A stretch of 64,000 nt of DNA from Spirosoma sp. 48-14 (GTDB taxonomy: Bacteria > Bacteroidota > Bacteroidia > Cytophagales > Spirosomataceae). Shown here piece by piece: positions 14,872-61,060 of the stretch. The notes under the pieces are model-generated. The model ran no database searches, was not told the DNA's origin, and saw only the letters and a program-made list of their open reading frames with translations. Where the stretch lies: contig NZ_MKUD01000088.1 of assembly GCF_001898575.1 (NCBI RefSeq), positions 93,402 to 157,401 of the forward strand, in the 5' to 3' direction. The position numbers and the translations under genes are program-made. How positions within the stretch are numbered: position 1 is the first letter of the stretch; every line of letters starts with the position of its first letter.

Positions 14872-15109
14872 GATTCAGTATTGTTGTTTATGCGTAAAAA
14901 AGAGGTTTGTGTTTCTGTTCAGGAAGGATAACCGCTTGCTGAATGATGGGTCAAAATTGCTCGGTACGATTCGACTGAACCAGGCTGAATCGGTTCAACC
15001 GGAAAAACGAGCCTATGAAATGAGTGATACGAACGGTAAAACAAACACAGTGATGATCCGAATCTGTGTCTGGCCTGCACTTTTTAAACCGGACAGTTGC
15101 GGACAAAAC

Positions 15110-15125
15110 TGTACGATTACGGACA
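15110..15125 (+). promoter_or_regulatory. PadR-module operator-like site 1
   Basis: The 16-mer TGTACGATTACGGACA is an imperfect dyad (TGTnC...GGACA) that recurs as TGTCCGGTAATGGACA upstream of the second PadR gene. In both cases 109 bases separate the end of the site from the PadR ATG. PadR regulators usually bind dyads in their own promoters, so autoregulation is the simplest reading. Confidence 0.5.
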
Positions 15126-15147
15126 TCGACTTTTAATGGAAAATGCC

Positions 15148-15180
15148 TTTCTAGGCTCGATAAGGCGAATTTTATGTTTG
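15148..15180 (+). promoter_or_regulatory. Promoter of PadR module 1
   Basis: TTTC, 21 bases, TATGTTTG: close to the Bacteroidota sigma-A consensus TTTG-N19-21-TAnnTTTG. It ends 54 bases before the PadR ATG at 15235. Confidence 0.5.
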
Positions 15181-15234
15181 GCAGGAGATTTGTTTTGCAA
15201 AATTACAACAAATCGTCTCAACCAATTTACGACC

Positions 15235-15573
15235 ATGCGAAGAGCCTTTTTAGGGGAGTTCGAAGAAATCGTCCTGTTGGTCGTAGCTGCCTGTCCCGCC
15301 GAAGCTTACGGCGTTACCATCTGGGAGGACCTTCAGCAGCAAACCGGCCGTTCGATCACCATGAGTGCGGTTCATGCCACCTTATACCGGCTGGAAGAAA
15401 AAGGGTTTTTATCCTCTACGATGGGGGGAGCTACTGCTGAGCGAGGAGGGCGCCGGAAACGGTTTTTTACCCTGACGGCCCTGGGCGTTCGCGCGTTAAA
15501 CGATGTTCAGCAGGTTCGGAGCCGACTTTGGCAGGCCATTCCTCCCGGAAAATTTCAACTGATTGGCGGGTAG
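15235..15573 (+). CDS. PadR-family transcriptional regulator 1
   Basis: Winged-helix repressor of the PadR family, 112 residues. I start at 15235 because this Met aligns exactly with the start of the second PadR in the window (MRRAFLGEFEE versus MRRTYLGEFEE) and gives the same length; the longer frame from 15097 has no counterpart. The recognition region is TMSAVHATLYRLEEKGFLSS and the wing GGATAERGGRRKRFF. It is followed after 3 bases by a prefix-domain permease, the usual partner of this PadR group, whose expression it probably controls together with its own. Confidence 0.9.
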   Translation: MRRAFLGEFEEIVLLVVAACPAEAYGVTIWEDLQQQTGRSITMSAVHATLYRLEEKGFLSSTMGGATAERGGRRKRFFTLTALGVRALNDVQQVRSRLWQAIPPGKFQLIGG

Positions 15574-15576
15574 TCT

Positions 15577-18231
15577 ATGAAAAAGCAACCTATTCCACCA
15601 CGCTGGGCCGACTGGCTTTTAGAAGTTTTTGTAGCTCCTCCTTTACGCGAAGACGTGCAGGGCGATCTGCACGAGGTATTTTACAAACGAACAGAACAGG
15701 AGGGCTTGTCGAAAGCTCGTCGGGAGTTTATCTGGGCTGTGCTCCACTATATAAACCCCTACTTTTTCAAAGCCCGCCAACGTACCAATCGACAGTCTGA
15801 TTACCCATCACCCTCTTACCTGCATCCTGCTATGCTACGTAATTACCTGACCATCGCCCTGCGCACGCTGGCCCACAACAAGGCCTATTCCATCATCAAC
15901 GTCGTTGGATTAAGTATCGGTCTGGCGGCTGCCATGCTGATTATTCTCTATACCAAAGACGAAGTCAGCTACGACCGCTTTCATACCAACAACCCGAACC
16001 TGTATCGGATCACCAGCCGCGATATCACACCCGGCGATCAGAAACCAAGCTACAATACAAATACGGGTATTTTTCAGGGGCCTAAGTTTACGGCTGGTAC
16101 ACCGGAAATACAGTCGTTTGTTCGTTTTCAATCCGGCCAGAGTGATATCCGGCAGGGCAATGAAGTCAAGAGTCAGGAGATGTTTTCGACAGATCCCGAG
16201 TTCTTCCAGTTATTCAGTTTTCCGTTGTTGAGTGGCGATCCCAAAACGGCTTTGTCTCGCCCGAAAACGGTGGTTATTTCGGAAGATATGGCCGAAAAAC
16301 AATTCGGGACAACCGATGCCCTGGGTAAGATCATGTTCATCAAGACCGAAGCGCAGTTTGAGCCGTATACAGTAACCGGAGTTGCGGTAAAATGCCCCCA
16401 GAATTCGTCCATAAAATTCGACGTATTACTGCCAATAACTGTTTCGAAAGAAGACATTGCCCGAAGCGACAACTGGTTCAGTTTCTTTCTGAATACGTTT
16501 GTGCTGGTGCGTCCCAACGCGAATATCAAGGCCGTCGAGGCAACCATGAATCGGATTTACCAGACCGATGCCAAAAACACGATTTTGGAAATGGCTAAAA
16601 AATTTGGGATAAAAAGTAAGACGATCTATTCGCTCCAGCCGCTTACAGAGATGCACTTAAGTACCGATCTGCCGGTCAACAATGGGCTGGTCGATGAAAG
16701 CAGACCTACGTTTTCGTACATTCTGTCGGGTATAGCCTTGTTTGTGCTGCTGATTGCCTGCATCAATTTTGTGAATCTGACGGTAGCTCGTTCGCTGAAA
16801 CGGGCTAAAGAGATTGGGGTCCGAAAAGTAGTGGGAGGGGGGCGAAACCAGCTTATTATCCAGTTTCTGGGCGAATCGTTCCTGCTCTGTTTTGTCGCGT
16901 TTGTGCTTGCCATTGTGTTGTTGCTGCTTGTATTACCAACGTTCAACCAGCTTGCCAACAAAGCCCTTTCGTTTGCTTATCTGCTCGACGTAAAACTGAT
17001 TGCCGGATACATTGGGCTATTTCTTGTAACGGGTTTATTGGCAGGGTTTTACCCGGCCATTGTCCTCTCTGGGTTTAGCCCGGTTCAAAGCCTGTATAGC
17101 CGATTCCGGTTTGCAGGCCGGAATTATCTGCAACGGGGGCTGATTGTGTTACAGTTTTCGCTGGCTTCGTTTCTCATTGTAGCCACATTGACCATCAACT
17201 CCCAGTTGAACTACCTGACGACCAAAAGCCTGGGTTACGACGATCGAAACCTGGTGGCGGTAAATAAATCGAGCCTGAACCATAGCGAAGCGCGTTTGCT
17301 CAAAAGTGAACTGATGAAGTTTCCAACCATTGTCGATGTAGCGCCCAAGAATCGGGGTTTCTGGGGAACGGTGGCTAAAGTCAATGGAGAGAAGCAGCTT
17401 TCCTTTGCCTACGAAACCGTCGATGAAATGTACCTGCCCCTGCTTAAGATTCCGATTCTGGCCGGTCGTAACTTTTCGCCCGATTTCCCCAGCGATTCGA
17501 CACAGTCGGTGCTGGTTAATGAAAGTTTTGTGAAAGAAGCAGGCTGGAAAAATCCAATTGGTCAGGAGGTGAATTTCTTTGCTTACGAGATCCCGGAACG
17601 CTATAAGGTGATTGGCGTTGTGAAAGACTATCACTTTGCAGCCCTGAATCAGAAAATCCGGCCGCAGTTGTTCACTATGAAACCAAAAAATGACTTCGGG
17701 AAAGCATTTGTCAAAATAAAACCGCATACCGAAACCGAAAGCCTCCGGGCTATCGAGCAGACGTTTAAAAAACTGTTCCCGATTAACCCCTATTCCTATA
17801 GCTTTCTGGATCAGGACAATCTGAAAAAATACGAATCGGAGGCTAAATGGCGACAGATTATGCTTTTCGGGGCCATCCTGACGATCTTTATTTCCTGTAT
17901 TGGGCTATTGGGGCTGGCGACATTGGCAGCCGAACGACGTACAAAAGAGATCGGTATTCGCAAGGTACTGGGTGCATCGGTAAGCAGTATTGTTCAACTG
18001 TTATCGTCCGATTTTCTACGATTGGTGGGTTTCTCCTTTGTGTTGGCCTTTCCAGCGGCCTATTTTGCCATTGACAAGTGGCTGGAAAACTATCCCTATC
18101 GGATCGAAATCAGTGCCTGGACGTTCGCGTTGGCGGCCCTCCTGGCCATATTGATCGCTTTCTTCACGGTCAGTTTCCAATCCATTCGAGCAGCCATGTC
18201 GAACCCAGTGAAAAGCTTACGATCGGAATAG
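15577..18231 (+). CDS. FtsX/MacB-like ABC permease with prefix domain 1
   Basis: Large inner-membrane permease (884 residues) of the FtsX-like, MacB-PCD type. An N-terminal prefix of about 85 residues (PRWADWLLEVFVAPPLREDVQGDLHE...) is the domain found in PadR-linked permeases of Bacteroidota. Then come a first helix (IINVVGLSIGLAAAMLIILY), a large periplasmic domain, three helices with the FtsX motif KRAKEIGVRKVVGGGRNQL, and a second copy of periplasmic domain plus three helices (RRTKEIGIRKVLGASVSSI). No ATPase gene is adjacent, so the nucleotide-binding partner must be encoded elsewhere. Substrate unknown; relatives act in antimicrobial or envelope-stress export. Confidence 0.85.
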   Translation: MKKQPIPPRWADWLLEVFVAPPLREDVQGDLHEVFYKRTEQEGLSKARREFIWAVLHYINPYFFKARQRTNRQSDYPSPSYLHPAMLRNYLTIALRTLAHNKAYSIINVVGLSIGLAAAMLIILYTKDEVSYDRFHTNNPNLYRITSRDITPGDQKPSYNTNTGIFQGPKFTAGTPEIQSFVRFQSGQSDIRQGNEVKSQEMFSTDPEFFQLFSFPLLSGDPKTALSRPKTVVISEDMAEKQFGTTDALGKIMFIKTEAQFEPYTVTGVAVKCPQNSSIKFDVLLPITVSKEDIARSDNWFSFFLNTFVLVRPNANIKAVEATMNRIYQTDAKNTILEMAKKFGIKSKTIYSLQPLTEMHLSTDLPVNNGLVDESRPTFSYILSGIALFVLLIACINFVNLTVARSLKRAKEIGVRKVVGGGRNQLIIQFLGESFLLCFVAFVLAIVLLLLVLPTFNQLANKALSFAYLLDVKLIAGYIGLFLVTGLLAGFYPAIVLSGFSPVQSLYSRFRFAGRNYLQRGLIVLQFSLASFLIVATLTINSQLNYLTTKSLGYDDRNLVAVNKSSLNHSEARLLKSELMKFPTIVDVAPKNRGFWGTVAKVNGEKQLSFAYETVDEMYLPLLKIPILAGRNFSPDFPSDSTQSVLVNESFVKEAGWKNPIGQEVNFFAYEIPERYKVIGVVKDYHFAALNQKIRPQLFTMKPKNDFGKAFVKIKPHTETESLRAIEQTFKKLFPINPYSYSFLDQDNLKKYESEAKWRQIMLFGAILTIFISCIGLLGLATLAAERRTKEIGIRKVLGASVSSIVQLLSSDFLRLVGFSFVLAFPAAYFAIDKWLENYPYRIEISAWTFALAALLAILIAFFTVSFQSIRAAMSNPVKSLRSE

Positions 18232-48040: not shown

Positions 48041-49252
48041 TTATTCCCATACGGGGAAAGGATCCTTAAAAGCACCCTTATTTTCCATATGGTTAAGCTC
48101 ATGTTCGGTGCATAAGCAGTCCATTAGCTCAGCCGTAATCTGGTTTTGGTTTAAATCCTGCCCAATGATAACCAGTTCGTTCTGGCGGTCGCCAAACCGT
48201 TTATGCCAACGCGAGTCGATTGCCTGCCGATTTTCTAGGAAGGAAGCATAGCGTAGGCGTTGAGAAAAGGGCATAGAAGCCCACCAGACTCCCGCTCGTT
48301 CGGCCCGAAGGCTTCCGCCCGCCTGACTAAAATTCAGGGCATCGGCTGGTCGGGAAGCCAGCCAGAACAGTCCTTTACTACGAATGATACCTGCTGGGAA
48401 GTTTTCGCTCAGATAATGCCATAGACGTGCCGGGTGAAACGGCCGACGATCTCTGAAAACAAATGACGAAATGCCATACGCTTCGGTTTCGGGTGTATGA
48501 CCCTTGCCGGATTTATGATTCTGTAATTCCTGAATCCAGCCCGCTGATTGGGAGGCTTCATCAAAATCAAACAAATGGGTGTTTAAGACTTGGGTTAGCT
48601 CGACCTTCGAGAACTGGCTTTCGATGAGTCGGGCGTTGGGGTTGAGTTTTTGAAGGATTGCCTTTAACTCGCCTAGTTGATTCGGCTTGAGCAGGTCTGT
48701 TTTGTTCAGTACGATCACGTTGGCAAACTCAATCTGGTCGGTCAGCAGATTTACGATCGTGCGTGTATCCGAAGCGTCGTCATTTAATTGTCGTTGGTAA
48801 ACTGTATCGACCGAACTAAAGTCGCGGGGGAAATTGAACGCATCAACCACAGTGACCAAGGTATCGAGCCGGGCGAATCGCGACAGGTCAATGCCCTGAT
48901 TTTCGTCGATAAAGCTGAACGTCTGTGCTACGGGCAAGGGTTCAGAAATCCCCGTGGATTCGATCAGTAAGTAATCAAAACGACCTTCGCGAGCCAGTTT
49001 TTCAACTTCAATCATCAGGTCTTCCCGGAGGGTGCAGCAGATGCAGCCATTACTCATTTCAACCAGCTTTTCTTCCGTTCGGGATAGGGTATTTTGCTGA
49101 TTCACGAGTTGGGCATCCACATTGACCTCGCTCATATCATTCACGATGACGGCCACTTTCAGCCCTTGTTTGTTGTGCAGGATATGATTGAGGAGGGTCG
49201 TTTTGCCAGCCCCCAGAAAGCCACTAAGAACGGTCACAGGTAGTTTTTTCAT
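48041..49252 (-). CDS. COG0523/CobW-type metallochaperone GTPase
   Basis: 403-residue G3E GTPase of the CobW/ZigA/YeiR group, which hydrolyses GTP to deliver or store metals, often zinc, in the cytoplasm. Walker A is [10 protein letters not shown] (11-20), the metal site is C70-I-C72-C73 (NGCICCTL), and NKTD follows. The CobW C-terminal domain lies from about 265. It is the third gene of a tight leftward operon with a DUF3299-like and a MerC-like gene, whose promoter carries a Zur-like palindrome, so zinc starvation is the likely signal. Confidence 0.92.
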
Positions 49253-49267
49253 AATTGATTGCGTGAT

Positions 49268-49705
49268 TTACTGAAGCTCGGCGTCCTCCAGTATGTAGTT
49301 TAATTCATAAATATTGTCGGCGTTGAGTCGTAAAGTACCCGAAAATGTTCGTCGCTCGTCTGTCTTGAATTTGTACGGCAATCGTTTGAATTTGAGAGCA
49401 ATAATGGATTCGGGACCGGCAGCTCCACAGAAAAAACAGGCCGCCATGGGGAATCGGGAAACAACATAAATGCCCCGCTCCAAATCAATGGGAAGTACAT
49501 AGCCTGCTATGCGGATGGATTTACCGGATAAGGCTTTTACCGAGTTGCCAAAATGAGGGTACAGCATCACAACGCCTTCTTCGGGATACCATTTTTTTTT
49601 GAACTGAACATCCCGCAACTGCTCCCAGGATACCGTTTCTGGTATTGTTGTCAGATGGAGAGATACCCCAAGAAAAAAGGGTAGAAGTAAGGAAACAGGC
49701 GTCAT
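49268..49705 (-). CDS. DUF3299-like exported protein
   Basis: 145 residues with a signal peptide (PVSLLLPFFLGVSLHLTT) and a domain like DUF3299: GKSIRIAGYVLPIDLERG, then C90-FF-C93 in AACFFCGAAGPES, a potential metal site. It sits 5 bases after the MerC stop and 15 before the COG0523 start. The family often occurs in zinc-responsive clusters, which agrees with this context. Biochemical role unknown. Confidence 0.78.
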   Translation of the reverse strand: MTPVSLLLPFFLGVSLHLTTIPETVSWEQLRDVQFKKKWYPEEGVVMLYPHFGNSVKALSGKSIRIAGYVLPIDLERGIYVVSRFPMAACFFCGAAGPESIIALKFKRLPYKFKTDERRTFSGTLRLNADNIYELNYILEDAELQ

Positions 49706-50119: not shown

Positions 50120-50134
50120 TGCAACATTGTTGCA
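50120..50134. promoter_or_regulatory. Zur-like palindrome 1
   Basis: TGCAACATTGTTGCA, a perfect 7-1-7 dyad, 31 bases before the MerC ATG. Its edge overlaps the leftward -7 box TATTTTTG (50133-50140), the position of a repressor operator. Zinc-type genes under it suggest a Fur-family regulator such as Zur; this is inference. Confidence 0.6.
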
Positions 50135-50181: not shown

Positions 50182-50196
50182 TGCAGCATTGTTGCA
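50182..50196. promoter_or_regulatory. Zur-like palindrome 2
   Basis: TGCAGCATTGTTGCA, one mismatch from site 1, with extra symmetric A/T pairs outside it (50180-50198). Centres of the two sites are 62 bases apart, about six helical turns. It lies 77 bases before the ATG at 50274. Confidence 0.55.
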
Positions 50197-50235: not shown

Positions 50236-50266
50236 TTTGTATGTGTTTATTTTCAGGCTACCTTTG
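50236..50266 (+). promoter_or_regulatory. Promoter of HCDGKC island
   Basis: TTTG (50236-50239), 19 bases, TACCTTTG (50259-50266): a full match to the Bacteroidota consensus. The -7 box ends 7 bases before the ATG at 50274, so the leader would be extremely short or absent, which also supports that start. Confidence 0.6.
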
Positions 50267-50273
50267 TTATACT

Positions 50274-50648
50274 ATGCGCTCTCTACTGATTTATACACTC
50301 CTTCTGGCCGTGCTGCTACCCAGCATCAGCTCATGGGGTATCATTGCGCATTATCAGCTGAATAAAGAATACATTGCTCGGGTCTTGTGCGAGAATCGGG
50401 ATAAACCGCAGATGCATTGTGATGGTAAATGCTACCTGGCTAAACGGTTAAAAGCGCAACAGGATAAGCAGGATAAAGAGACAACAGAGCGTGTTCAGCA
50501 TACCTCACTGATTCAATTATATTTCGAGGCTAATCAGGCATTTACCTTTGTATCGCCAGTAGTGTATACACATCGGCAGGTATTTACGTATCTGCTTAGC
50601 CTGTACGCGGCTCCTACCCACGGCCTTCTTCGGCCACCCTGTGCCTGA
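50274..50648 (+). CDS. Small membrane protein with HCDGKC motif, paralogue 1
   Basis: 124 residues, one N-terminal helix (LLIYTLLLAVLLPSISSWG), then a conserved extracytoplasmic part: H26, LNKEYIARVLCEN (C39), and H48-C49-DGK-C53. The three Cys and two His are at the same positions in the paralogue at 56762, as is the charged helix QQDKQDKETTERVQHT. The ORF could start at 50241, but the promoter fits 50274. I know no characterised member; similar small proteins accompany metal genes in Bacteroidota. A metal-binding membrane protein is my best guess. Confidence 0.7.
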   Translation: MRSLLIYTLLLAVLLPSISSWGIIAHYQLNKEYIARVLCENRDKPQMHCDGKCYLAKRLKAQQDKQDKETTERVQHTSLIQLYFEANQAFTFVSPVVYTHRQVFTYLLSLYAAPTHGLLRPPCA

Positions 50649-50814
50649 TCTGGTACGTTAATCATTTCCAGTCGATAGCCCCGCTAAGATGGGCAAGTTT
50701 GCTGTATCTATGGCTGTCGATCAATAGGTCGGTGTTCTCGGACAACGTTCCATATTCTTCTAGTTCAGTCTGTTTGCTCATTGTGTGAGCAGGAGGCTTC
50801 CATGTTACTTCTGT

Positions 50815-51300
50815 ATGAATGCTACGAACTATAGTATAGCCCTATTGTTGGGCCTATTTTGTGTTGCCTGCCAATCGAGCCCATCGACTGATGCGGCCAA
50901 TCAAGCTGATTCAAGTGCGCTAATCACAGCCAGATCTCAATCGGTAGCCGATCTTGAAAAACAGATTTTGGCCCTTCATGACAGCGTAATGCCTGCCATG
51001 AGTGACCTGATGAAACTGAGAAAACAGGTGATGGAGCAGTTAGGCGAACTGGAAAAAGAGCCCATGTCGGCTGATGTACAGCGGCAGAAAGAGCAGGCTC
51101 TTGCCGTAAAGACAGCGCTGGATAAAGCCGATGCGTCGATGATGGATTGGATGCATATCTATAACGGAGACACCCTGGCAACGTTGAATGAGCAACAGGC
51201 CCTGGCGTATTTGAAAGATCAGCAGCAACGTGTACATACGATGAGTCTGTTGATGCGCAAAAGTATCGACGACGCGAGGGCTTATCTGAAACAGCTATGA
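50815..51300 (+). CDS. Hypothetical lipoprotein
   Basis: 161 residues from the ATG at 50815, with a lipobox at FCVACQSS. The mature part is almost all helical and charged, with likely coiled coils (DLEKQILALHDSVMPAMSDLMKLRKQ and ALAYLKDQQQRVHTMSLLMRKSIDDA), and the segment DWMHIYNG in between. It is translationally coupled to the SCO gene by an ATGA overlap, which suggests a joint role at the cell envelope, for example presenting metal or acting as scaffold. Confidence 0.7.
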   Translation: MNATNYSIALLLGLFCVACQSSPSTDAANQADSSALITARSQSVADLEKQILALHDSVMPAMSDLMKLRKQVMEQLGELEKEPMSADVQRQKEQALAVKTALDKADASMMDWMHIYNGDTLATLNEQQALAYLKDQQQRVHTMSLLMRKSIDDARAYLKQL

Positions 51301-51938
51301 AATTCAGGTGCGCGTGTATAAGTCTGTTGTTGCTGTTTGGCCTGAGCCAATGTAGCCAGACGACTGAAAAGCTGCCCTATATCGGCGAGCCCGAAACGGT
51401 GACCAACCTGGTAGATGGAAACGAAGTAACGGGGCGAGGCTATCCAGTCATTCCAGCGTTTTCGTTCATCAATCAATATGGTAAGACGGTGACCCAGCAG
51501 GATTTCGATGGGAAAATCTACGTAGCCGATTTCTTCTTTGTGACTTGTCCGACTATTTGTCCCATTATGAAAAAGAACCTGCTGGAGGTATACAAAAAAT
51601 ATAAGGATAGTCCCGACGTCAGGATTCTATCGCATACCATCGACCCCGACCATGATACCCCGGTAGTACTCGGGGAATACGTTCGGGAGCTTGGTATTAC
51701 AGGCACCATGTGGCAGTTCGTAACCGGCGACCGGGAAAAAATCTACGACATCGGTGAGAATCACTACCTGGTAACGGCTGGGAAAGATGCCAAAGCACCG
51801 GGTGGCTACATTCACAGTGGGGCCTTTGTCCTGATCGACAGGGAGAAGCACATTCGGGGGATGTATGATGGCACCACACAGGAGGGAACCCAGAAGTTGA
51901 TCCGGGATATTAATGTGCTCCGGCAGGAATACGAGTAG
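51297..51938 (+). CDS. SCO1/SenC-family copper-handling lipoprotein
   Basis: 213-residue thioredoxin-fold protein of the SCO family, which binds copper and helps build the CuA site of cytochrome oxidase or acts in thiol redox. The copper ligands are C84 and C88 (VTCPTICP) and H173 (GGYIHSGAF). A lipobox at GLSQCSQ (Cys19) places it on the periplasmic face of a membrane. Neighbouring PepSY, YHS and MbnP/MbnH-type genes strengthen a copper role. Confidence 0.92.
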   Translation: MKFRCACISLLLLFGLSQCSQTTEKLPYIGEPETVTNLVDGNEVTGRGYPVIPAFSFINQYGKTVTQQDFDGKIYVADFFFVTCPTICPIMKKNLLEVYKKYKDSPDVRILSHTIDPDHDTPVVLGEYVRELGITGTMWQFVTGDREKIYDIGENHYLVTAGKDAKAPGGYIHSGAFVLIDREKHIRGMYDGTTQEGTQKLIRDINVLRQEYE

Positions 51939-51961
51939 CGAATGGAAATTACCAAACTCTT

Positions 51962-53095
51962 ATGAATCGAACACGTAGTCTGTTTACACTTCATAGCTGG
52001 CTGGGGCTATTTACTGGTATTTTTCTTTTTCTGCTGGGGCTGAGTGGATCGGTGCTCGTGTTCCGGCATGAACTGGATCAGGTTGCCAACCGTGAAGTCC
52101 TGACGGTAAAGTTACCGACTCAAGTTGTGGCCAATCCTTTAACCCGGTGTTATCAAACGATTCTCAGCCGCTATCCAAACCTGGACGGCATTGCCTGGCT
52201 TAATCCTGACGCCGGACCGACAGAGGCCTACGACTTTCGGCTTTACCTAAATGATACCCAGTTGCTCACGTACGATCTGGGATTGATTTCATTTAATCCA
52301 TATACCGGAACGATAGTGCGTGAAGGTAAATCGATTGACTTCAGTCCCAGCATCATCGAATGGTTATTCCAGTTTCATTTTAGTTTCCAGTTAGGCATGC
52401 CAGGAGCGGCTTTAACTGCGCTGTTTGGGCTGACCATGTTGGGGTCGTTGCTGACCGGGTTAGTCATCTACCGAAAAATGATCTGGAGAGTGCTGACGCT
52501 TCGGTCGCGAATAAACCGCAAAAACTGGCGAACCATCAGCTCGGATCTTCATCGGCAGGTTGGGGTGTGGTCGTTATTGCTCAATGCTGTAATCTTCTTT
52601 ACGGGCTTCTGGATGAATCTGTTTGCATTTGAGCCCAAAACCTGGCAGGCTGAACTAACGCAAACCCGGCTTAATACGCCAATGGCTCTGACGGCCGATG
52701 GGTTGTACCAGCAGGCCAGGCGATTAATGCCCGATCTGGAACCGTCGTATGTATATCTGCCGACACAGCCTGAGCGCAAATTTAGGGTCAGCGGACCCTT
52801 GAAAGGGCAGTGGGCGTTGTGGGGAGCTGGTAACGCCGTTATTCTTGATCAGCAAACGGGCAAACTTGTCCAGATTCGTCGACTATCGGAACTGCCAGTG
52901 GCCAAACGTCTGGAGTCGGCATTTTTTCCATTGCATGTAGGCAACTACGGCGGCTTACCCGTAAAAATTGTGTATGTATTGATTGGTTTAACGCCGGGCA
53001 TACTGGCTATTACGGGTTTTCTGCTCTGGTGGCGACGGGCTCGGAAGCCAACGCGTAATTGGCCTGAACAGCGTATTGTTGTTAGGCCAACCTAA
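51962..53095 (+). CDS. PepSY-associated transmembrane protein
   Basis: 377-residue inner-membrane protein of the PepSY_TM (PiuB) family with four helices: LHSWLGLFTGIFLFLLGLSGSVLVF near the N-terminus, two central (about 135-165 and 195-218), and one near the C-terminus (VYVLIGLTPGILAITGFLLWWRR). Periplasmic PepSY-like domains lie between. Family members often go with TonB-dependent metal or siderophore receptors and may reduce or transfer metal. It follows SCO by 23 bases. Confidence 0.88.
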   Translation: MNRTRSLFTLHSWLGLFTGIFLFLLGLSGSVLVFRHELDQVANREVLTVKLPTQVVANPLTRCYQTILSRYPNLDGIAWLNPDAGPTEAYDFRLYLNDTQLLTYDLGLISFNPYTGTIVREGKSIDFSPSIIEWLFQFHFSFQLGMPGAALTALFGLTMLGSLLTGLVIYRKMIWRVLTLRSRINRKNWRTISSDLHRQVGVWSLLLNAVIFFTGFWMNLFAFEPKTWQAELTQTRLNTPMALTADGLYQQARRLMPDLEPSYVYLPTQPERKFRVSGPLKGQWALWGAGNAVILDQQTGKLVQIRRLSELPVAKRLESAFFPLHVGNYGGLPVKIVYVLIGLTPGILAITGFLLWWRRARKPTRNWPEQRIVVRPT

Positions 53096-53132
53096 CTGGC
53101 TTGGTTGACACAAGTCTCTAACTCTATTCAGC

Positions 53133-53318
53133 ATGAACGCATTACCTACTCGTCGGGACTTACAACAGCTACTGGCCAATACAGGAGTTTCGCTGCCAGA
53201 GTCGAAATCAGTATGGTCGCAGGAAGCTATTAACTGGACTGCCTTGGTACTCATTCACGTTGCTCTATTGCTGGCAATGTGGGACATACTTGTCCGTCTC
53301 CGGCCGCTCACACATTAA
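53133..53318 (+). CDS. Small single-helix membrane protein
   Basis: 61 residues: a polar N-terminal part, then one helix (WTALVLIHVALLLAMWDILVRL). It fits the gap between the PepSY gene (37 bases before) and the DJ-1/YHS gene (13 bases after), on the same strand, which supports it being real. A small subunit or partner of the PepSY protein is possible. I know no family. Confidence 0.5.
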   Translation: MNALPTRRDLQQLLANTGVSLPESKSVWSQEAINWTALVLIHVALLLAMWDILVRLRPLTH

Positions 53319-53331
53319 CGAATCTTATCCC

Positions 53332-54252
53332 ATGAAAAAACGTAATCAACTTATTTTAGGGCTCTTTCTGTTCGTTTATACAAGCCTGTCCGCGCAGGCA
53401 CAATCTGCCCCGGTTGGTGATACAACCCGGGTCGCCATTCTGCTGTTTCCAGGCGTAGAGTTGCTCGATTTTGCCGGACCGCTGGAAGTGTTTAATCACA
53501 TGGAAAGCGCTAAGGTATATACCGTAGCGGCTCAGTCGGGCCCCATGACCATTATGCAAAGAATGCTCACCGTCGTGCCCGAATATACCCTGTCGACAGC
53601 GCCATTGCCTGATGTGCTGGTGGTGCCAGGTGGACGAATGGAAGAGGTTATGCAGGATAGTAGCGTCGTCAGTTGGATTAGGCGGACTACGTCCCATCGG
53701 CAACTGACGATGTCGGTCTGCACAGGTACGTTTCTGCTGGGCAAGGCGGGTCTGTTAGATGGTAAGACCATTACGACGCATTGGGCAGCCACTCAAATGC
53801 TTCAGCAAATGACCCCCAAAGCTACGGTGATGGAGCATACCCGGTTCGTGGATCAGGGTAATCTAGTAACTACAGCGGGTGTTTCGGCGGGTATTGACGG
53901 GGCCTTGCGCGTAGTGGCCCGGCTGAAAGGCATGGAAGCTGCCAAACAGATCGCCCGCATCATGGAATATGACAAGTGGGACCCGAAGGCAGGACTCGTT
54001 GTGGGCCAGATACGAACCCAGGCTAAAGGGAAAGCCAACCCAACTGTCGGGAAACCAGCCGCCGTCAAAAAAACGGTAGTGATGAAACCGGGTCAATGGA
54101 AACTAACCTCATCTATTGACCCAGTCTGCCAAATGTCAGTAGACGGATTGGTGGCCGATACAGCTCGGTACATGGGCAAGACGTATGGGTTCTGTTCAAA
54201 AATGTGTAAAGAGCGGTTCAGGAAAGAACCGATGACCTACCTCAAGCACTAA
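53332..54252 (+). CDS. Exported DJ-1/PfpI - YHS fusion protein
   Basis: 306 residues from the ATG at 53332, which gives a signal peptide (LILGLFLFVYTSLSAQAQ). A DJ-1/PfpI domain (about 33-215) has the nucleophile-elbow Cys C130 in SVCTGTF and H150 in TTHWAA, like the AraC-type (GATase1) subgroup. After a basic linker, a YHS domain (about 262-306) has C266 (DPVCQMSV), C288 and C292 (YGFCSKMCKERF). YHS domains bind or sense heavy metals, often copper. The fusion and its export are unusual. The earlier Met at 53260 would hide the signal. Confidence 0.85.
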   Translation: MKKRNQLILGLFLFVYTSLSAQAQSAPVGDTTRVAILLFPGVELLDFAGPLEVFNHMESAKVYTVAAQSGPMTIMQRMLTVVPEYTLSTAPLPDVLVVPGGRMEEVMQDSSVVSWIRRTTSHRQLTMSVCTGTFLLGKAGLLDGKTITTHWAATQMLQQMTPKATVMEHTRFVDQGNLVTTAGVSAGIDGALRVVARLKGMEAAKQIARIMEYDKWDPKAGLVVGQIRTQAKGKANPTVGKPAAVKKTVVMKPGQWKLTSSIDPVCQMSVDGLVADTARYMGKTYGFCSKMCKERFRKEPMTYLKH

Positions 54253-54327
54253 ACTATCTATTGGCTCAATTATGTCTGGTCTGTTCTACCTGAACTAGAT
54301 GTAATTGACCTTACCCCAAACTTTATT

Positions 54328-56649
54328 ATGCGTTTCAATAATACGTTTCTCCTTCTGCTTTGCCTGCTGGCCATCAGCAGTTTTGCCCAAACCATAACCG
54401 GGAAAATTAAATCTGGTTCAGGCGAAGCCATCGGTTTTGCCAACATCTCCGTTTTGAACAGTTCGAACGGGACAACGGCCGACAAAGACGGTAATTTTTC
54501 CCTGGATCTGGCCAGAGGAAGGTACCAGTTACAAGTCAGTGCTATTGGCTTTGCCACCAAAATTCAACGGGTGACTGTATCGGACCAACCGCAAACGGTA
54601 GACGTCACCTTGGTGGATAATACCAATGCCCTGAGCGAAGTGGTCGTCACGGCTGATAAAACCGAAGAAAAGCTACAAAACACGCCGTTGGCGGTTACCT
54701 CGCTCAATGCCAGGCAGCTAGAAGAATATCGGGTGTGGACCATCAGCGACCTCACTGCCCTGGCACCCAGCACCTTTATTGTGGAACACGGAAATAGCAC
54801 CGGGTCTAATTTTTTGAATATTCGGGGGGCTATGGGGTTTGCCAATGATCAGTCCGTGGCTACGTATGTGGACGGGGTCTATCAGTTTGATTATTTTTCG
54901 GCCCCCTTCAATTTCAGCAATATCGAACGAATCGAAATTCTACGGGGACCCCAGGGTACGCTCTACGGCCGAAATGCCTATAGTGGCGTGCTCAACGTAA
55001 TTACCAAACGACCCACCAACAAAACCAGCGCATTTGCCGAAATCGATTTGGGCAATTACGGCCAGCAGCGGTATAGTGTGGGGCTCAATGCCCCGCTCAT
55101 ACAGGATAAATTGTTTGTGAACGCCGGATTTCAGGCCAACATTCGGGGAGCAATCTATTCGAATCCAACCCTGGACACTAGAAATTTCGACCATCATAAG
55201 GCCTATAGCGGCAATGTAAACCTGAAATATCTGGTATCGGACAAGTGGATAGTCGACTGGAACACAAGGTATGAAAACGACAACGATAAGGGGGCATATC
55301 CCTGGGCCGCTACCGACAGCGCGGCCCGAGCCAATCCGTACACGGTTTTTGGCAATTGGGATAATACCGAACGCAGAACCAATTTCAACACTTCTCTAGG
55401 TGTGCGATACTTTGGCCGTACGTTTAATTTTACGTCCATCACCGCTTTTGTCGATTATCATATCTGGTTGCCGGGACGATTTGATTTTGATTTTGGGCCC
55501 GACCAGTTAATTAGCTTTACTACCTGGACAGAACAAAACGAATTGACCCAGGAGTTTCGCATTTCGTCGCCAGCCAATGCCGGGAAATGGAAATGGACCG
55601 TAGGCTCTTATTTATTCGGGGAAAAAATAAAGAATAGCAGCACGACCTATTTCGACAAGGACTATGCTCTCCTCGATCCGAATGCGCCCTACGCGTCCAT
55701 CGGCAACGGGAAACGGAATGGGTACGGTATCGCATTTTTTGGGCAGGCGGCCTACGCCATCACGCCAGCTTTTGACGTAACGATTGGGGCCAGGTATGAC
55801 ATCGAGCGCCGGGAACTGACGCAAAATTCTTTGTTTGAAAAAGATAATGTAGTTACGTTGTTAGCCCCGGACAGCACCTCAAAAAAGACTTTTAATGCGT
55901 TTACGCCCAAGGTTATTTTGAGTTACAAATTGACGGATAACTCGATGGTATATGGGGCGTATGCCAAAGGATTCCGAGTGGGCGGATTTAATTTTGGCAA
56001 CCTAGCCAATCCAACCTATAACCCGGAAAAATCAGATAATTATGAAGTGGGTATCAAAAATACGCTTTTCACAAACCGGCTTAAACTGAACCTGACGGCG
56101 TTTTATTTCCAACAAAAAGACCAGCAGGTATCCACCTCCCGCGACGGCGTAAACTATGCCACGCTGAATGTGGGCGATATGGATAATTATGGATTGGAGC
56201 TGGAAGTATCGACCCTGCCGATCAAAAACTTACAAATCGACTAGACGGCCAGTACCTCACACAGTGAATACAAAAAATTACAACTTTTTGATGCAGAAAC
56301 CAATGCGGTAAACGATTACAAGGGTAACAAAGCGATTAACAATCCAGCTTTGCAGTCGATGCTTGCCGTTCAATACGGCGTGCCTTTTGCTACTTCTGCT
56401 CAAACGTTCAAAGCCTTTGTCAGGGGGGAATTCCGATACATCGGCCAATACCAGTTGGATTTTGTCAATGCCTATCAGCAGAGCGCGTATGGTATGGTTA
56501 ACACCCGAGCCGGTGTTACCAGTAGTCATTTTGATGTTGCCCTGTGGGTTCGTAATCTTACGGATGTGCGCTACATGGCGTATGGGTACGGCAGTTATAT
56601 GATGGGCCTTCCCCGAATGCTGGGTATAACCCTAACTGGTAAATTTTGA
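54328..56649 (+). pseudogene. TonB-dependent receptor with in-frame amber codon
   Basis: Outer-membrane receptor: signal peptide (NTFLLLLCLLAISSFAQ), a carboxypeptidase-like beta domain (about 20-105), a plug with IERIEILRGPQGTLYGRNAYSG, and a beta barrel ending in aromatic GKF. The reading frame is broken only by TAG at 56242-56244 (codon 639); the same frame then continues without error to the TGA at 56647-56649, total 773 codons, a normal receptor length. The context IKNLQID-stop-TASTSHSEY suggests a former Trp (TGG). The 638-residue fragment would lack the last barrel strands. Likely cargo is a metal complex, judging by neighbours. Confidence 0.85.
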
Positions 56650-56761
56650 TTTTTGACCGTTGGGGTATCCGGGATTATACTCTCTGATTACGTTTACCCC
56701 TTATTGTACCAAAGTAAACCTCTTGTTCCTGTTTGTTTTTGTAAGCGCTGTTGAATTGCCA

Positions 56762-57154
56762 ATGCGGACATTTATTCTGTATCTACTGCTGATTGCGACA
56801 ATATTGCCGACGGTAAGTCCGTGGGGGATTGTTGCGCACTATCAGCTTAATAAAGAATACATTGCCCGGGTGCTTTGCGAAAACCGCAACCGACCCGAAT
56901 TGCATTGTGATGGCAAATGTTATCTGGCTCGCCGTCTGAAAGCACAGCAGGATCGGCAGGACAAGGAAACTACCGAGCGCGTTCAGCATACGCCTTCCGT
57001 TCAACTTTATTGCAACGAGCGCTTCGGCTTTTGCTGCGAACCGGTTTCTGCCTTCAGGGAAGCTATTCCCACTTTTGCCTATCAATTGATTGTTTATTCT
57101 GCACCATTACCTGCTGTTTTTCAGCCACCAGGTAATCCTGGCCAGTGGGCTTGA
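56762..57154 (+). CDS. Small membrane protein with HCDGKC motif, paralogue 2
   Basis: 130 residues from the ATG at 56762. Residues 21-77 are nearly identical to the gene at 50274, with C39, H48, C49 and C53 conserved; the C-terminal parts diverge, and this copy has an extra CNERFGFCCEP cluster. The longer frame from 56660 would put another hydrophobic stretch in front. It heads the second half of the island, before the MbnP-MbnH block, just as copy 1 heads the first half. Confidence 0.7.
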   Translation: MRTFILYLLLIATILPTVSPWGIVAHYQLNKEYIARVLCENRNRPELHCDGKCYLARRLKAQQDRQDKETTERVQHTPSVQLYCNERFGFCCEPVSAFREAIPTFAYQLIVYSAPLPAVFQPPGNPGQWA

Positions 57155-57360
57155 CAACGAAGCCGTTTGTTCGTCGCCAGCATCTGTCGGGCGAAATCAA
57201 AATTCTCAATTATTAACTTATTCATTTTTAGGTTAGTCGTTCCCAAACGGGCTCATATTCTGGCCGAACAGATCGGCTTGCGCAAGTAGCGCATGCCCAG
57301 TAAGGCGTATGGATACGGTTGTCTTTGAGGTGACGATGACTTGACCGCTTTAACACGATT

Positions 57361-58191
57361 ATGCATACTCATTTTTCATATCAACTTATCGTTTCGTTTC
57401 TGATTGTCGGTATTACGTTGGTTTCCTGTAAGAAGGACGACGAGGATATCATTGACCCAGCCGTTAAAAACTCGGTATCCATTCAATTTGAAAACCGGGT
57501 GGGCGATCAGAAACTTGTACTGGGGACTCCTGCTTACAAAAATGCATCGGGAGAAACGTTTGCCCTTACGACGCTCAATTACTTTATCAGTAATATATCG
57601 CTCAAAAAAGATGACGGTACAGTCCAGAAATTCCCCAATCAGTATTTTCTGGTTCGCCAGGCTGATGCGGCTTCGCAGGTGATTACGCTAAAGGATGTAC
57701 CCTCGGGCAATTATAGTGAGATGAGCTTCATGATTGGGGTCGATAGTACCAAAAGTGTATCGCCCGTCAGCGAGCGGGTAGGGGCACTGGATGTGACTAG
57801 CTACGGCACGGATGGCATGTACTGGTCGTGGAATTCGGGCTATATTTTCCTGAAAATAGAAGGCACATCAACCGCTGTACCGACCACAATCAGTGCCAAT
57901 CAAAGTTTTGCGATGCACATCGGTGGATATGGTGGCGGCTGGAATGGCTCTGCCAAAACGGTGAATAACCTTCGTTCGGTAACGTTACCCATGACGACGA
58001 AAGCCACCGTTCGGGGAAATATCGCTCCTGAGATTCACTTGTTTGTGGATGCGCTCCAGATCTTCAATGGCCCCAATAAGATCAGCCTGGCTACGACGAA
58101 CAGTGTGCATATGCCTGCTGCTGCAACGCCCATTGCAGACAACTACAAGACCATGTTTCAGGTCGATCACGTACACAACGATAAGCAATAG
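57361..58191 (+). CDS. MbnP-family lipoprotein 1
   Basis: 276 residues with a lipobox at LVSCKK (Cys23) and an MbnP-like beta-sandwich. Its core MYWSWNSGYIFLKIEG (Y154, W155, W157) is the family signature. In characterised MbnP/MbnH pairs the diheme partner oxidises a Trp of MbnP to a kynurenine that helps bind copper. This copy has no Cys beyond the lipobox, unlike four-Cys MbnP proteins. His residues lie in FAMHIGGYG, PEIHLF and the C-terminal DHVHNDK. The diheme gene follows after 51 bases. Confidence 0.85.
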   Translation: MHTHFSYQLIVSFLIVGITLVSCKKDDEDIIDPAVKNSVSIQFENRVGDQKLVLGTPAYKNASGETFALTTLNYFISNISLKKDDGTVQKFPNQYFLVRQADAASQVITLKDVPSGNYSEMSFMIGVDSTKSVSPVSERVGALDVTSYGTDGMYWSWNSGYIFLKIEGTSTAVPTTISANQSFAMHIGGYGGGWNGSAKTVNNLRSVTLPMTTKATVRGNIAPEIHLFVDALQIFNGPNKISLATTNSVHMPAAATPIADNYKTMFQVDHVHNDKQ

Positions 58192-58242
58192 GTCGCATCG
58201 GTCCCTGGCTTCACAGGCTGGGGGCCGTTCTTGTTCTAGCTT

Positions 58243-59307
58243 ATGAATAGACTATCGAGTCTCAAAACAGGATTTGGGGGCGTTGGTTTGGTGTTGGGGC
58301 TGCTGGCCTGCCAGGTGGAAGAGCCGGAGGCTCAGCCCCAGGAACTTTTTCAACAGCCTGCCAATTTTCCCCAGCCGGTTTACGCCGTGGACCAAAATCG
58401 GCCCACGGCGGCCGGGGTAGCTTTAGGCAAATCGTTGTTTTACGATGGCATCCTGTCGCGCGACGGGTCGATTTCCTGCGCTGAGTGCCATAACCAGGCA
58501 TATGCGTTTACGCACCACCAGCATGATGTTAGTCACGGGATCGATAATCGGGTAGGAACCCGGAATTCACTGCCGATTCAGAACCTGGCCTGGGCATCGG
58601 ATTTTTTCTGGGATGGAGGAGTACATAGCCTGGATTTAGTACCGATTGCACCCATCGAAAATTCGGTGGAAATGGATGAACGATCGGCGAATGTGATCCG
58701 TAAACTGCGGGCAAGTGCTACCTATCCTGCTTTGTTTAAAGCGGCCTTTGGTACTGACGAGATCAATGGGCCTCGTTTTCTGCAAGCCTTGTCGCAGTTT
58801 ATGCTAACGATGGTTTCAGGGAATTCGCGCTACGACAAGTGGGTTCGGAAAGAGCCGGGCGGTACGCTGACCGTCGAAGAAATGGCCGGGCTAACGGCTT
58901 TTCGGGCTAAATGCAGTGGCTGCCATGCAGGTGAGTTGTTTACTGACAACAGCTTTCGGAACAATGGCCTGTTTATTCAGGGGAGTAACGATGAAGGGCG
59001 GGCTCACGTTACCGAGCTGCCGCAGGATCGCTACAAATTTAAGGTGCCGAGTTTACGGAATGTTGAGAAAACATTGCCTTATATGCACGACGGCCGATTT
59101 TATTCGCTCGAAGCCGTGCTGAATCATTACGCCGAAAATGTGCAGCCAACCGAAAATCTCGATCCTTTACTTCAGCCGAAAAGTAACTCGGACCAATCCC
59201 GGCTAGGTATTCCACTAACATCGGACGAAAAACGACAGATCATTGCATTCCTGAAAACACTTACCGACGACCAGTTCCTGCGTGACCCTCGGTTTGCCAT
59301 TCAGTGA
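58243..59307 (+). CDS. MbnH-like diheme cytochrome c peroxidase-family lipoprotein
   Basis: 354 residues with lipobox LLACQ (Cys23) and two c-type heme sites, CAECH (79-83) and CSGCH (224-228). The order and spacing are those of the bacterial cytochrome c peroxidase/MauG family, and the neighbouring MbnP genes indicate the MbnH branch, which modifies MbnP instead of removing peroxide. FFWDGGVHSL and PSLRNVEKTLPYMHDGRFYSLEAVL are typical of this branch. A periplasmic-facing location is implied by lipidation and heme attachment. Confidence 0.9.
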   Translation: MNRLSSLKTGFGGVGLVLGLLACQVEEPEAQPQELFQQPANFPQPVYAVDQNRPTAAGVALGKSLFYDGILSRDGSISCAECHNQAYAFTHHQHDVSHGIDNRVGTRNSLPIQNLAWASDFFWDGGVHSLDLVPIAPIENSVEMDERSANVIRKLRASATYPALFKAAFGTDEINGPRFLQALSQFMLTMVSGNSRYDKWVRKEPGGTLTVEEMAGLTAFRAKCSGCHAGELFTDNSFRNNGLFIQGSNDEGRAHVTELPQDRYKFKVPSLRNVEKTLPYMHDGRFYSLEAVLNHYAENVQPTENLDPLLQPKSNSDQSRLGIPLTSDEKRQIIAFLKTLTDDQFLRDPRFAIQ

Positions 59308-59335
59308 TGATTAACCAACTAAAGGCGATTGCCCT

Positions 59336-60247
59336 ATGAAAAAATATTTCTTGTTCGGATTGTTTGTACAACTCGCATTACCGACGTTGGCCTGTGACCT
59401 CTGTGGTTGTAGCAACGGTGGGTCGTTTTTTGGGATTCTGCCACAAGGTCATCGGGGCTTTCTGGGGGTTCGCTATCGGTACAACTCGTATCACTCCCAC
59501 CTGAATAGCTTGAATCTGAGTAGCCAGGAGCAGTTTCGGACGGCTGAGCTTTGGGGGCGGTTCTATCCGATCCGTCGGATGCAGGTAATGGCGTTTGTAC
59601 CGTATCAGTTCAGTCAGCAAACGATGCTCAAATCGGGGGATGTAACGCCCCTGCGTGGTCTGAGTGATATTACCGTGCTGGCGCATTACAACGTACTGAA
59701 TACGTTTATGGATGATACCACCGTGCATACTGTCAATCATAATTTACTGGTCGGGGGCGGTGTGAAGCTGCCAACAGGCCGTTTTCGGTATGATGAAAAC
59801 AGCCTGTTGGATGTAGCTAACCCGAATTTTCAGCTCGGAACCGGCAGTATTGACTGGATTGGCAATGTGATCTATACAGCTCGCTATAAAAATTGGGGTG
59901 TAAACGCTGATGTGTCGTACCGGATAACGACAGCTAATCCGAATGGCTATCGGTTTGGTAACCGATTCAATACATCGGCATCCGTTTTTTACCTAGCCGG
60001 CCTGGGCAGCCGGTCCATCATGCCTAATGCCGGGTTATTTGTCGAACACGCTGGGCATGATGGACGTGATGGTGTGGTAAACAAGCAAACGGGGGGCTAT
60101 GCGGCTTATCTGAATCTGGGCACCGAAGTGTATCTGAATAAACTATCGGTTGGAATGAGTTATCGGAAGCCCGTATCGCAGTATTTATCGGATGGCGAAC
60201 TGCGCGCCAATGCACAACTAACTACTCATATCACCTTTTTATTCTGA
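59336..60247 (+). CDS. Outer-membrane barrel protein with CDLCGC motif
   Basis: 303 residues. A signal region (KKYFLFGLFVQLALPTLA) is followed directly by C20-DL-C23-G-C25, a likely metal site at the mature N-terminus or, less likely, a lipid anchor. The rest alternates polar and aromatic strands (GVRYRYNSYHSHLN, WGVNADVSYRITTA, KLSVGMSYRKPVSQYL) and ends in Phe (ITFLF), the signature of an outer-membrane barrel. Genes of this kind recur beside MbnP-like genes in Bacteroidota. It may pass or bind copper across the outer membrane; the next MbnP starts 6 bases later. Confidence 0.75.
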   Translation: MKKYFLFGLFVQLALPTLACDLCGCSNGGSFFGILPQGHRGFLGVRYRYNSYHSHLNSLNLSSQEQFRTAELWGRFYPIRRMQVMAFVPYQFSQQTMLKSGDVTPLRGLSDITVLAHYNVLNTFMDDTTVHTVNHNLLVGGGVKLPTGRFRYDENSLLDVANPNFQLGTGSIDWIGNVIYTARYKNWGVNADVSYRITTANPNGYRFGNRFNTSASVFYLAGLGSRSIMPNAGLFVEHAGHDGRDGVVNKQTGGYAAYLNLGTEVYLNKLSVGMSYRKPVSQYLSDGELRANAQLTTHITFLF

Positions 60248-60253
60248 TAAACG

Positions 60254-61060
60254 ATGCGTCTTTCGCTTATACTACTGCTGCTGGTGTGTTTATTGGTAGG
60301 CACAATTTGGTCGTGCCAGAACGAAGTTGACGTTTCCGAAACCGGATCGCTCATCATAAACCTCGATAACCGGGTTGGCAATCAGGATTTAAGCCTGGGA
60401 AAAGCCACGTACCAAAATGCGGCAGGCGAAGCCTTTACAGTTACAAAATTCAATTATTTCGTCAGTAACTTTCGGCTTAAAAAGGCCGACGGAACGGAGT
60501 ATGTATTGCCTCAGGAGGCTAACTACTATTTGATTCAGGAAGATAAACCAGAATCTCAATCCTTTACACTGACGACGATTCCAGCGGGTACGTATATCGG
60601 GATGTCGTTTTTAATTGGGGTGGATAGTTTGCGGAGCCTGGCCAATATTAGCCAGCGTACGGGAGTGCTTGATCCGGGTCTGGGAACTCACGAAGCAATG
60701 TACTGGGAGTGGAATTCAGGTTATATTTTTCTTAAGCTGGAAGGTACGTCCCCGGTCGCTCCAGCTGCACAGAATAACCTGTTCTTCTATCATATTGGTG
60801 GCTTTGGAGGTGGGTACAATGGCAAGAAAACCATCAACAATCTTCGCACCGTTACCATTTCGTTCAATGGAAATTCGGCTCAGGTATCTGCATCGGGCAG
60901 ACCGCAGGTCAATCTGACTGCAGATGTACTAAATGTCTTTACTGGCACAACAACTTTGCAAATTGCCCAGCATTCGTCAGTAATGTTTGAAGATTATTCA
61001 GCCAACATCGCGAATAACTACAAGGAAATGATCCGGTATAAGGATTTGCAAAATCAGTAA
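60254..61060 (+). CDS. MbnP-family lipoprotein 2
   Basis: 268-residue paralogue of the gene at 57361. The lipobox is IWSCQN (Cys21), the core MYWEWNSGYIFLKLEG (Y150, W151, W153), and FYHIGGFGGGYNG and INNLRTVT match as well. There is no further Cys. It starts 6 bases after the barrel gene, so the MbnP-MbnH-barrel-MbnP order is probably one transcript, closed by the hairpin at 61072. Two MbnP substrates for one MbnH-like enzyme is the simplest reading. Confidence 0.85.
   Translation: MRLSLILLLLVCLLVGTIWSCQNEVDVSETGSLIINLDNRVGNQDLSLGKATYQNAAGEAFTVTKFNYFVSNFRLKKADGTEYVLPQEANYYLIQEDKPESQSFTLTTIPAGTYIGMSFLIGVDSLRSLANISQRTGVLDPGLGTHEAMYWEWNSGYIFLKLEGTSPVAPAAQNNLFFYHIGGFGGGYNGKKTINNLRTVTISFNGNSAQVSASGRPQVNLTADVLNVFTGTTTLQIAQHSSVMFEDYSANIANNYKEMIRYKDLQNQ

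Follow-up and report, generated by a model that had tools for sequence, protein, structure and literature searches.

The twelve rightward genes at positions 50274-61060 of a 64,000-nucleotide (nt) stretch of Spirosoma sp. 48-14 DNA are at least two copper-type operons lying end to end, each headed by a gene for a small protein, HCDGKC. The whole stretch, hereafter the window, covers positions 93402-157401 of contig C88 in a source genome of 8.68 Mb and 89 contigs. The island is a known copper cargo set in an unusual regulatory frame. Its best explanation, which by analogy with systems in other bacteria we consider reasonably probable, is that leader-headed copper operons have been joined and that the first of them additionally carries Zur-like boxes in its promoter. 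Both heads, HCDGKC1 and HCDGKC2, look like metal-sensing leader peptides, a type of switch known from other bacteria and apparently undescribed in this form in Bacteroidota. A previous sequence-only reading had taken the twelve genes as parts of one copper path. All twelve open reading frames (ORFs) do lie on the plus strand, and library matches upheld the families assigned to them (SCO1-SenC, PepSY_TM, DJ-1_PfpI with YHS, TonB plug and barrel, MbnP twice, and CCP_MauG/MbnH). The two HCDGKC proteins, the lipoprotein, the 61-amino-acid (aa) protein and the CDLCGC protein match no Pfam or NCBIfam family above its cut-off. The two operons comprise the following features.

50259-50266, + strand: TAnnTTTG element TACCTTTG, 7 nt 5' of the HCDGKC1 ATG
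50274-50648, + strand: HCDGKC1, candidate metal-sensing leader ORF of operon 1, 124 aa, ending LLRPPCA-stop
50649-50814, + strand: long gap 3' of HCDGKC1, 166 nt, candidate attenuation site
50815-51300, + strand: lipoprotein (LPP), which elsewhere recurs after HCDGKC and beside SCO
51297-51938, + strand: SCO1/SenC copper chaperone with CPTIC (PF02630, 94.5 bits)
51962-53095, + strand: PepSY_TM membrane protein (PF03929, 191.9 bits)
53133-53318, + strand: 61-aa membrane protein, found again after PepSY in loci L086 and L087
53332-54252, + strand: DJ-1/PfpI-YHS fusion (PF01965 and PF04945)
54328-56649, + strand: TonB-dependent receptor with TonB plug and barrel matches and an in-frame TAG at 56242-56244
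56762-57154, + strand: HCDGKC2, candidate leader ORF of operon 2, 130 aa, ending FQPPGNPGQWA-stop
57155-57360, + strand: long gap 3' of HCDGKC2, 206 nt
57361-58191, + strand: MbnP 1 with a WSW motif (MYWSW; PF20243, 179.2 bits, cut-off 27)
58243-59307, + strand: MbnH-like diheme enzyme with CAECH and CSGCH (PF03150, CCP_MauG, 173.4 bits)
59336-60247, + strand: outer-membrane barrel, 303 aa, N-terminal CDLCGC (FapF and COG4313 channel fold)
60254-61060, + strand: MbnP 2 with a WEW motif (MYWEW; PF20243, 180.7 bits, cut-off 27)

Operon 1 runs HCDGKC1-LPP-SCO-PepSY-61aa-DJ1/YHS-TonB and operon 2 runs HCDGKC2-MbnP-MbnH-barrel-MbnP. The two heads are paralogues, with 75% identity over 190 nt, and the gene sets behind them recur apart from one another. 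Separate modules of the forms HCDGKC-MbnP-MbnH-barrel, HCDGKC-MbnP-MbnH-LPP-SCO, HCDGKC-TonB-PepSY, HCDGKC-TonB-BNR-MbnP-MbnH and HCDGKC-LPP-SCO-PepSY-61aa are hosted by Spirosoma, Dyadobacter, Larkinella, Pedobacter, Chitinophaga, Mucilaginibacter and others. Among relatives, genome G149 holds all twelve genes in order together with two additional genes; G159 holds the first eleven until its fetched stretch ends, its PepSY ORF being just 133 aa long; and G131 is without PepSY and 61-aa ORFs at the locus and has SCO split into two ORFs. Conservation of the neighbourhood is accordingly a matter of modules, which are kept, whereas the whole twelve-gene order is absent in most relatives. In even class-wide draws of 149 genomes each from the window's class, Bacteroidia, MbnP was present in 109 and HCDGKC in 86. 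Among listed places outside the source genome (105 of HCDGKC and 146 of MbnP), at least 40 pairs, from at least 37 of the 148 other genomes, have MbnP following HCDGKC in the same orientation at a distance of up to 4 kb, against one reverse arrangement upstream and none on the opposite strand. Conservation of the HCDGKC-MbnP association at the module level is far above chance, and the co-occurrence anticipated from the sequence alone is borne out. Many MbnP genes stand without HCDGKC, since only 39 of the 146 listed MbnP places have one upstream within 4 kb. A single twelve-gene path is rejected because the modules are mobile and the promoters separate; what stands of that proposal is its copper theme, carried by the MbnP fold, the WxW motif, MbnH, SCO and the class-wide modules. 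Instead, two or more copper-type operons would have been joined head to tail, an arrangement specific to this lineage.

A BNR-like secreted-type protein of 403 aa (L105 14521-15732, and relatives) follows the TonB receptor in HCDGKC modules and bears CQCCRTN and ACPHAGP motifs, so that it is possibly a metal protein. In L157, a response regulator and a histidine kinase, both assigned by eye, follow the TonB-BNR module at 14240-16339. Within the window, a 13-pair hairpin (58199-58227) lies immediately 3' of MbnP 1 and 5' of MbnH. Counts of sigma-70 promoters and terminators were no higher than chance.

For HCDGKC as a leader ORF, the locus set took up to 20 kb around HCDGKC genes at 40 places in Spirosoma and its family, with one locus added afterwards, and the 80 named loci are the best 80 of at least 586 confirmed stretches in a scan of 84,980 species genomes. 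The main count covers 141 distinct ORFs from 120 of 121 loci, locus L102 starting shifted and so lacking its HCDGKC gene; a smaller set of 131 ORFs is without 10 genes that the larger one includes. The motif C-x9-C-x-G-x-C is kept in all 141 ORFs. A Pro-Pro (PP) pair falls among the last 15 residues of 139 of the 141, exactly two residues from the end in 100, whereas 37 of 1568 other ORFs in the same loci have PP within their last 15 residues; the two HCDGKC ORFs that lack it (one in L149, one in L215) have longer, different ends. The residue preceding PP in these 139 is H in 43, R in 41, Q in 40, P in 11 and K in 4, which places R, Q or H directly before PP in 124, and F or L stands one place earlier in 119. 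The distance from the Cys site to PP is 63-71 residues, with a mode of 68 (63 of 127). An alignment of 27 diverse members has only nine invariant columns (I34, C39, N41, P45, C49, G51, C53, P121 and P122), five of which are the three cysteines and the two prolines. A hydrophobic N-terminal segment (16-aa mean above 1.6) is present in 128 of 131.

In 138 of 141 cases the gene that follows is on the same strand, and it is a TonB receptor in 72 (the TonB model TBDR_b, a single-fragment build, served as a generic TonB label), MbnP in 35 and LPP in 10. The median gap after HCDGKC is 110 nt, whereas 258 other gaps within modules have a median of 13 nt. The element TAnnTTTG, which we take to be the Bacteroidota -7 consensus, precedes 86 of the 141 HCDGKC genes at a distance of up to 60 bp, starts being placed near the motif in these counts, and the ATG follows 4-9 nt after TTTG in 55 of these 86. 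In the smaller set it was found at 79 of 131 genes, whereas module genes, even when given generous starts, had it at 13 of 387 and shuffled sequences at 4.3 of 131; taking the longest ORF as the start reduces the count to 47 of 131. The last 180 nt are skewed toward C over G (0.175, n=131, against -0.009, n=452).

Weak library matches of HCDGKC were taken as chance (Pfam HPIH, E 0.0092, for HCDGKC1; the best NCBIfam match, E 0.0032, in 2 of 27 members), and the literature search found no paper for HCDGKC, HCNGKC, HYC_CC_PP or DUF6660. Two small Cys-rich proteins that resemble each other (L020 7503-7832, which matches DUF6660, and L019 10091-10450, source genome contig C59) carry CSPLCVCSCCG and end in QPPLLG; both adjoin Zur-like boxes, one precedes CzcA-type efflux genes, and together they are probably another leader family. 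Two other small ORFs that carry RGPP or QPP close to their ends lie in the same metal region (L020 11579-11959 and 15787-16191).

That the metal handled by the cargo is copper is supported by MbnP, MbnH and SCO. A structural model of MbnP 2, with a predicted local distance difference test (pLDDT) score of 88.3, matches at E below 0.001 only chains of the MbnP structure 7L6G, the best at 3.7e-09, and WxW is present in both window MbnPs and in 65 of 70 MbnPs. In the methanotroph pair, MbnH oxidises the first tryptophan of WxW to kynurenine, which gives a Cu(I) site. The window's diheme enzyme has TIGR04039 (MbnH) as its best NCBIfam model (215.3 bits), and it matches 6E1C ("Di-heme enzyme", presumably MbnH itself) at 1.4e-34, second to the di-heme peroxidase 1IQC; two CxxCH motifs are present in 68 of 69 MbnH homologues. 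CPTIC in the SCO protein is an instance of CxxxC, which we take to be the SCO1/SenC motif. The CDLCGC protein had been called a barrel from its sequence, and its model is indeed a predicted beta-barrel (pLDDT 79.9), with A-C-x-x-C-G-C kept at the N-terminus in 21 of 21 aligned sequences. A third MbnP/MbnH pair in the source genome, on contig C1 (L022 8200-10668), converges with a second MerC-like gene.

A layer of zinc regulation, unforeseen by the sequence-only reading, probably lies on top of operon 1, because its promoter has two copies of a Zur-like box. The limits first drawn for the island left outside a divergent operon (50088-48041) that shares this promoter.

48041-49252, - strand: COG0523 GTPase, ZigA-like zinc metallochaperone (NCBIfam NF038288, 563.7 bits, just below the cut-off of 600)
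49268-49705, - strand: 145-aa protein with an FCGAAGPES motif and no family; a homologue adjoins a box in L083 and L143
49711-50088, - strand: MerC-family membrane protein (PF03203, 61.3 bits)
50120-50134: Zur-like box 1, TGCAACATTGTTGCA, MerC side
50182-50196: Zur-like box 2, TGCAGCATTGTTGCA, HCDGKC1 side

Both boxes are 7-1-7 palindromes. The exact palindrome occurs at 55 sites in 34 of 59 genomes, its reversed control at one, and its neighbours include ZigA (14 sites), MerC (9) and ZnuD-like receptors (10), as well as ZIP, CDF and a Fur-family gene. References for ZnuD, the thioredoxin-reductase-like protein (TrxR), ZIP, CDF, Fur and a 415-aa protein were chosen from box loci, so that the figure of 48/55 is inflated, and weight is placed on ZigA, MerC and HCDGKC, chosen beforehand, and on library names. 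The ZnuD label itself stands at 113.3 bits against a cut-off of 950, and the same protein matches a copper-receptor model at 71.5 bits. With up to one mismatch allowed within 300 bp upstream, the box stands at 5 of the genus's 28 HCDGKC genes, a total that includes the window's two, compared with 1 of 261 other genes, a control from which zinc-type genes were set apart as a group of their own (13 of 41). In the window it stands at HCDGKC1 and not at HCDGKC2. The operon 1 promoter has the box in the window and in two relatives, and shares it with the MerC/ZigA operon in two of these three; a palindromic box common to zinc genes and operon 1, the mark by which Zur-regulon membership was judged, was in this way found. 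In G149, where ZigA and MerC are absent at the locus and the 145-aa gene is partial, the box on the HCDGKC side survives with one mismatch, which suggests that this box serves the island. The source genome has three Fur-family genes, with a Fur-family candidate on contig C58, and the regulator that binds the box is taken, putatively, as Zur. Zur-like control of the whole island is rejected for operon 2, there being no box with up to one mismatch within 300 bp of HCDGKC2 in the window, G159, G149 or G131.

Two further box neighbours deserve mention. The thioredoxin-reductase-like flavin adenine dinucleotide (FAD) protein adjoins Zur-like boxes at 8 of the 55 sites (L064, L066, L068, L129 and others) and would be an unexpected zinc-regulon member, its reference having been taken from a box locus. 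In L131, two exact boxes near 1515 and 1555 precede a homologue of the 415-aa protein, which has no family and is lipoprotein-like by eye.

A number of observations weigh against the reading of the island as leader-headed copper operons with a Zur-boxed first member. In two gap alignments of six sequences each, the coding ends were conserved, the gaps had diverged and no clear conserved element appeared; gaps are shorter than 60 nt in 31 of 138. The exact TAnnTTTG is missing at 55 of 141 HCDGKC genes, HCDGKC2 of the window (TGTTTTTG) included, and the tail of HCDGKC2 after PP is longer. The C>G skew may come in part from amino-acid content, stalling by [FL]-[RQH]-PP is putative, and this end differs from the RAPP described for CruR, a copper leader of Bordetella pertussis (PMC9426467). 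Neither HCDGKC1/2 nor any of the 27 members matches PF11162 (DUF2946), for which reason HCDGKC as DUF2946 is rejected. As for the cargo, the window MbnPs (49.1 and 44.2 bits) miss the cut-off of 140 bits for MbnP_like_WxW (TIGR04052), and the diheme enzyme misses that of 362.85 bits for TIGR04039. As for zinc, the box is absent at 23 of the 28 genus HCDGKC genes, including all four HCDGKC2-type units examined, and one of the five box-bearing genes comes from G159, which was fetched on account of its box; relatives give 4 of 26 with it and 3 of 24 without.

The Cys site and hydrophobic N-terminus of HCDGKC would also fit a membrane-anchored copper chaperone that acts in trans with the downstream proteins and stands first by operon convention only. 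We regard such a chaperone as unlikely: it accounts for the invariant Cys motif and the N-terminus but needs no invariant PP, which in 100 of 139 stands two residues ahead of the stop, and it leaves aside the long gap, the frequent own promoter, the first place and a leader that is constant while the cargo varies widely. HCDGKC proteins, formerly assigned to the inner membrane as parts of the path, are in our judgement probably cis-acting metal-sensing leader ORFs instead.

Less probable still is a zinc-starvation island whose MbnP, MbnH and receptor would handle zinc or a chelate of it. It draws on the two promoter boxes, the divergent MerC and ZigA, and the persistence of the HCDGKC-side box in G149 without a ZigA operon there, as well as on boxes outside the genus, exact or near ones adjoining the MbnP-MbnH modules of L092 and L107 (genus g18, by the 415-aa protein) and two-mismatch ones at MerC in L100, L109 and L115. 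Against it stand the lack of a box at the HCDGKC2/MbnP units and at most HCDGKC genes, the restriction of central boxes (0-1 mismatch) among the 80 named loci to Spirosoma (L155, L161 and L162), and the WxW and SCO CxxxC motifs, which indicate copper. Finally, a methanobactin-like chalkophore import system with its own synthesis genes would suit the published content of methanobactin loci, which hold MbnP, MbnH and a TonB receptor (PMC3621798), but is very improbable given the interrupted receptor gene and a source genome without a match to MbnB (PF05114), on which ground a methanobactin locus is rejected; import of compounds made by other bacteria may occur.

The receptor gene is interrupted: its ORF (54328-56244) ends at the TAG at 56242-56244, and the same frame continues to 56649. 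This TAG may be a real stop or an assembly error; the receptor is uninterrupted in G149, G159 and G131, at 773, 789 and 773 aa. In the stretch 56701-57154, the element before HCDGKC2 reads TGTTTTTG in the window as opposed to TATTTTTG in these three relatives, and the HCDGKC2 tail after PP has seven residues. Because of the receptor stop, the altered element and this tail, the middle of the island may be decaying in this strain.

Returning to joined, leader-headed copper operons, the proposed working follows the analogy of CruR and CutF. Three features make up HCDGKC, namely an N-terminus that is hydrophobic, the site C-x9-(H)C-x-G-x-C and, directly ahead of the stop, an end of the form hydrophobic-[RQH]-Pro-Pro. 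The ribosome would slow at the terminal PP, metal binding at the emerging Cys site would alter that slowing, and the slowing would decide whether transcription or translation gets beyond the long, C-rich gap to reach the cargo genes. The cargo of operon 1 (LPP, SCO, PepSY, the 61-aa protein, DJ-1/YHS and the TonB receptor) would then serve capture and delivery, and that of operon 2 would combine MbnP and MbnH, with their Cu(I) site, with the CDxCGC outer-membrane barrel. Given the Zur-like box at its promoter, operon 1 is probably transcribed when zinc is scarce, and its expression would be trimmed by a thiophilic metal, of which copper is the likeliest. The prediction hinges on two prolines and three cysteines. 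If true, it names a regulator for several hundred operons (at least 586 confirmed stretches) and ties MbnP, present in most genomes of the class draws (109/149), to a metal switch outside methanotrophs.

Of the known systems, the Methylosinus trichosporium MbnP/MbnH pair shares with the window its fold, WxW and adjacent diheme enzyme (PF20243; 7L6G). It differs in that the window pair is tied to HCDGKC and a CDxCGC barrel, leaves the NCBIfam cut-offs unreached and comes from a genome without MbnB. Zur boxes of 7-1-7 form have been reported (PMC6103462), and the window resembles Zur regulons containing COG0523 and ZnuD in having such a palindrome by ZigA, ZIP, CDF, ZnuD-like receptors and a Fur-family gene; it differs in that the predicted box also precedes a copper-type operon. 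The portions of the literature seen held no published Zur box for Bacteroidota.

For HCDGKC the closest parallel is CruR, which heads a cruR-bfrG-PepSY_TM operon (bfrG encoding a TonB receptor), requires CXXC and RAPP, precedes a 162-bp gap and acts by Rho, while other DUF2946 operons contain ScoC and MbnPH (PMC9426467); arrest at RAPP has been shown in vitro (PMC12992588). HCDGKC likewise is a small, putatively exported-type first gene with a Cys motif, a C-terminal PP and a long gap to the second gene, its C>G-rich 3' ends resemble the C>G bubble of CruR, and the two have in common a cargo of TonB receptor and PepSY, with SCO and MbnPH in other members. The differences lie in C-x9-C-x-G-x-C as against CXXC, in a Cys-PP spacing of about 68 as against 45, and in an ATG that often follows the promoter element by 4-9 nt; in this class, ribosomes reportedly make no use of Shine-Dalgarno sequences (PMC9976891). 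Of 99 genomes of the class, 2 had DUF2946 itself, against 86 of 149 with HCDGKC, and the source genome gave one 13.1-bit match, elsewhere and below the cut-off. The RQH arrest-peptide family has R, Q or H two places ahead of PP (PMC10987492), whereas HCDGKC has it immediately before. CutF-like proteins, defined by size, PP end and position (5,334 proteins in 29 clusters, of which Bacteroidota make up 19%, or 40% when normalised), take their name from CutF of Rhodobacter capsulatus, which acts through stem-loop opening (PMC9973294). HCDGKC was matched to them by their published rules only: at 124 and 130 aa both heads are below 150, their gaps of 166 and 206 nt are below 1000, PP lies within the last 15 residues and the next gene is on the same strand. 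HCDGKC thus fails DUF2946 membership yet fits the working of a CruR/CutF-type leader. We put forward tentatively, with somewhat less than even confidence, that HCDGKC is a class-wide Bacteroidota arrest-peptide family with its own end ([FL]-[RQH]-P-P-x-x-stop) and metal site and near-leaderless transcripts, which heads TonB-PepSY, SCO and MbnP-MbnH operons in the position occupied in Proteobacteria by DUF2946/CruR. A survey of RAPP/RGPP leaders published in 2025 describes TonB-gene leaders throughout Gram-negatives and copper-gene leaders as not found in Bacteroidota, among other groups (PMC12992588); if true, HCDGKC would go some way towards closing that gap, by way of an end motif of another kind.

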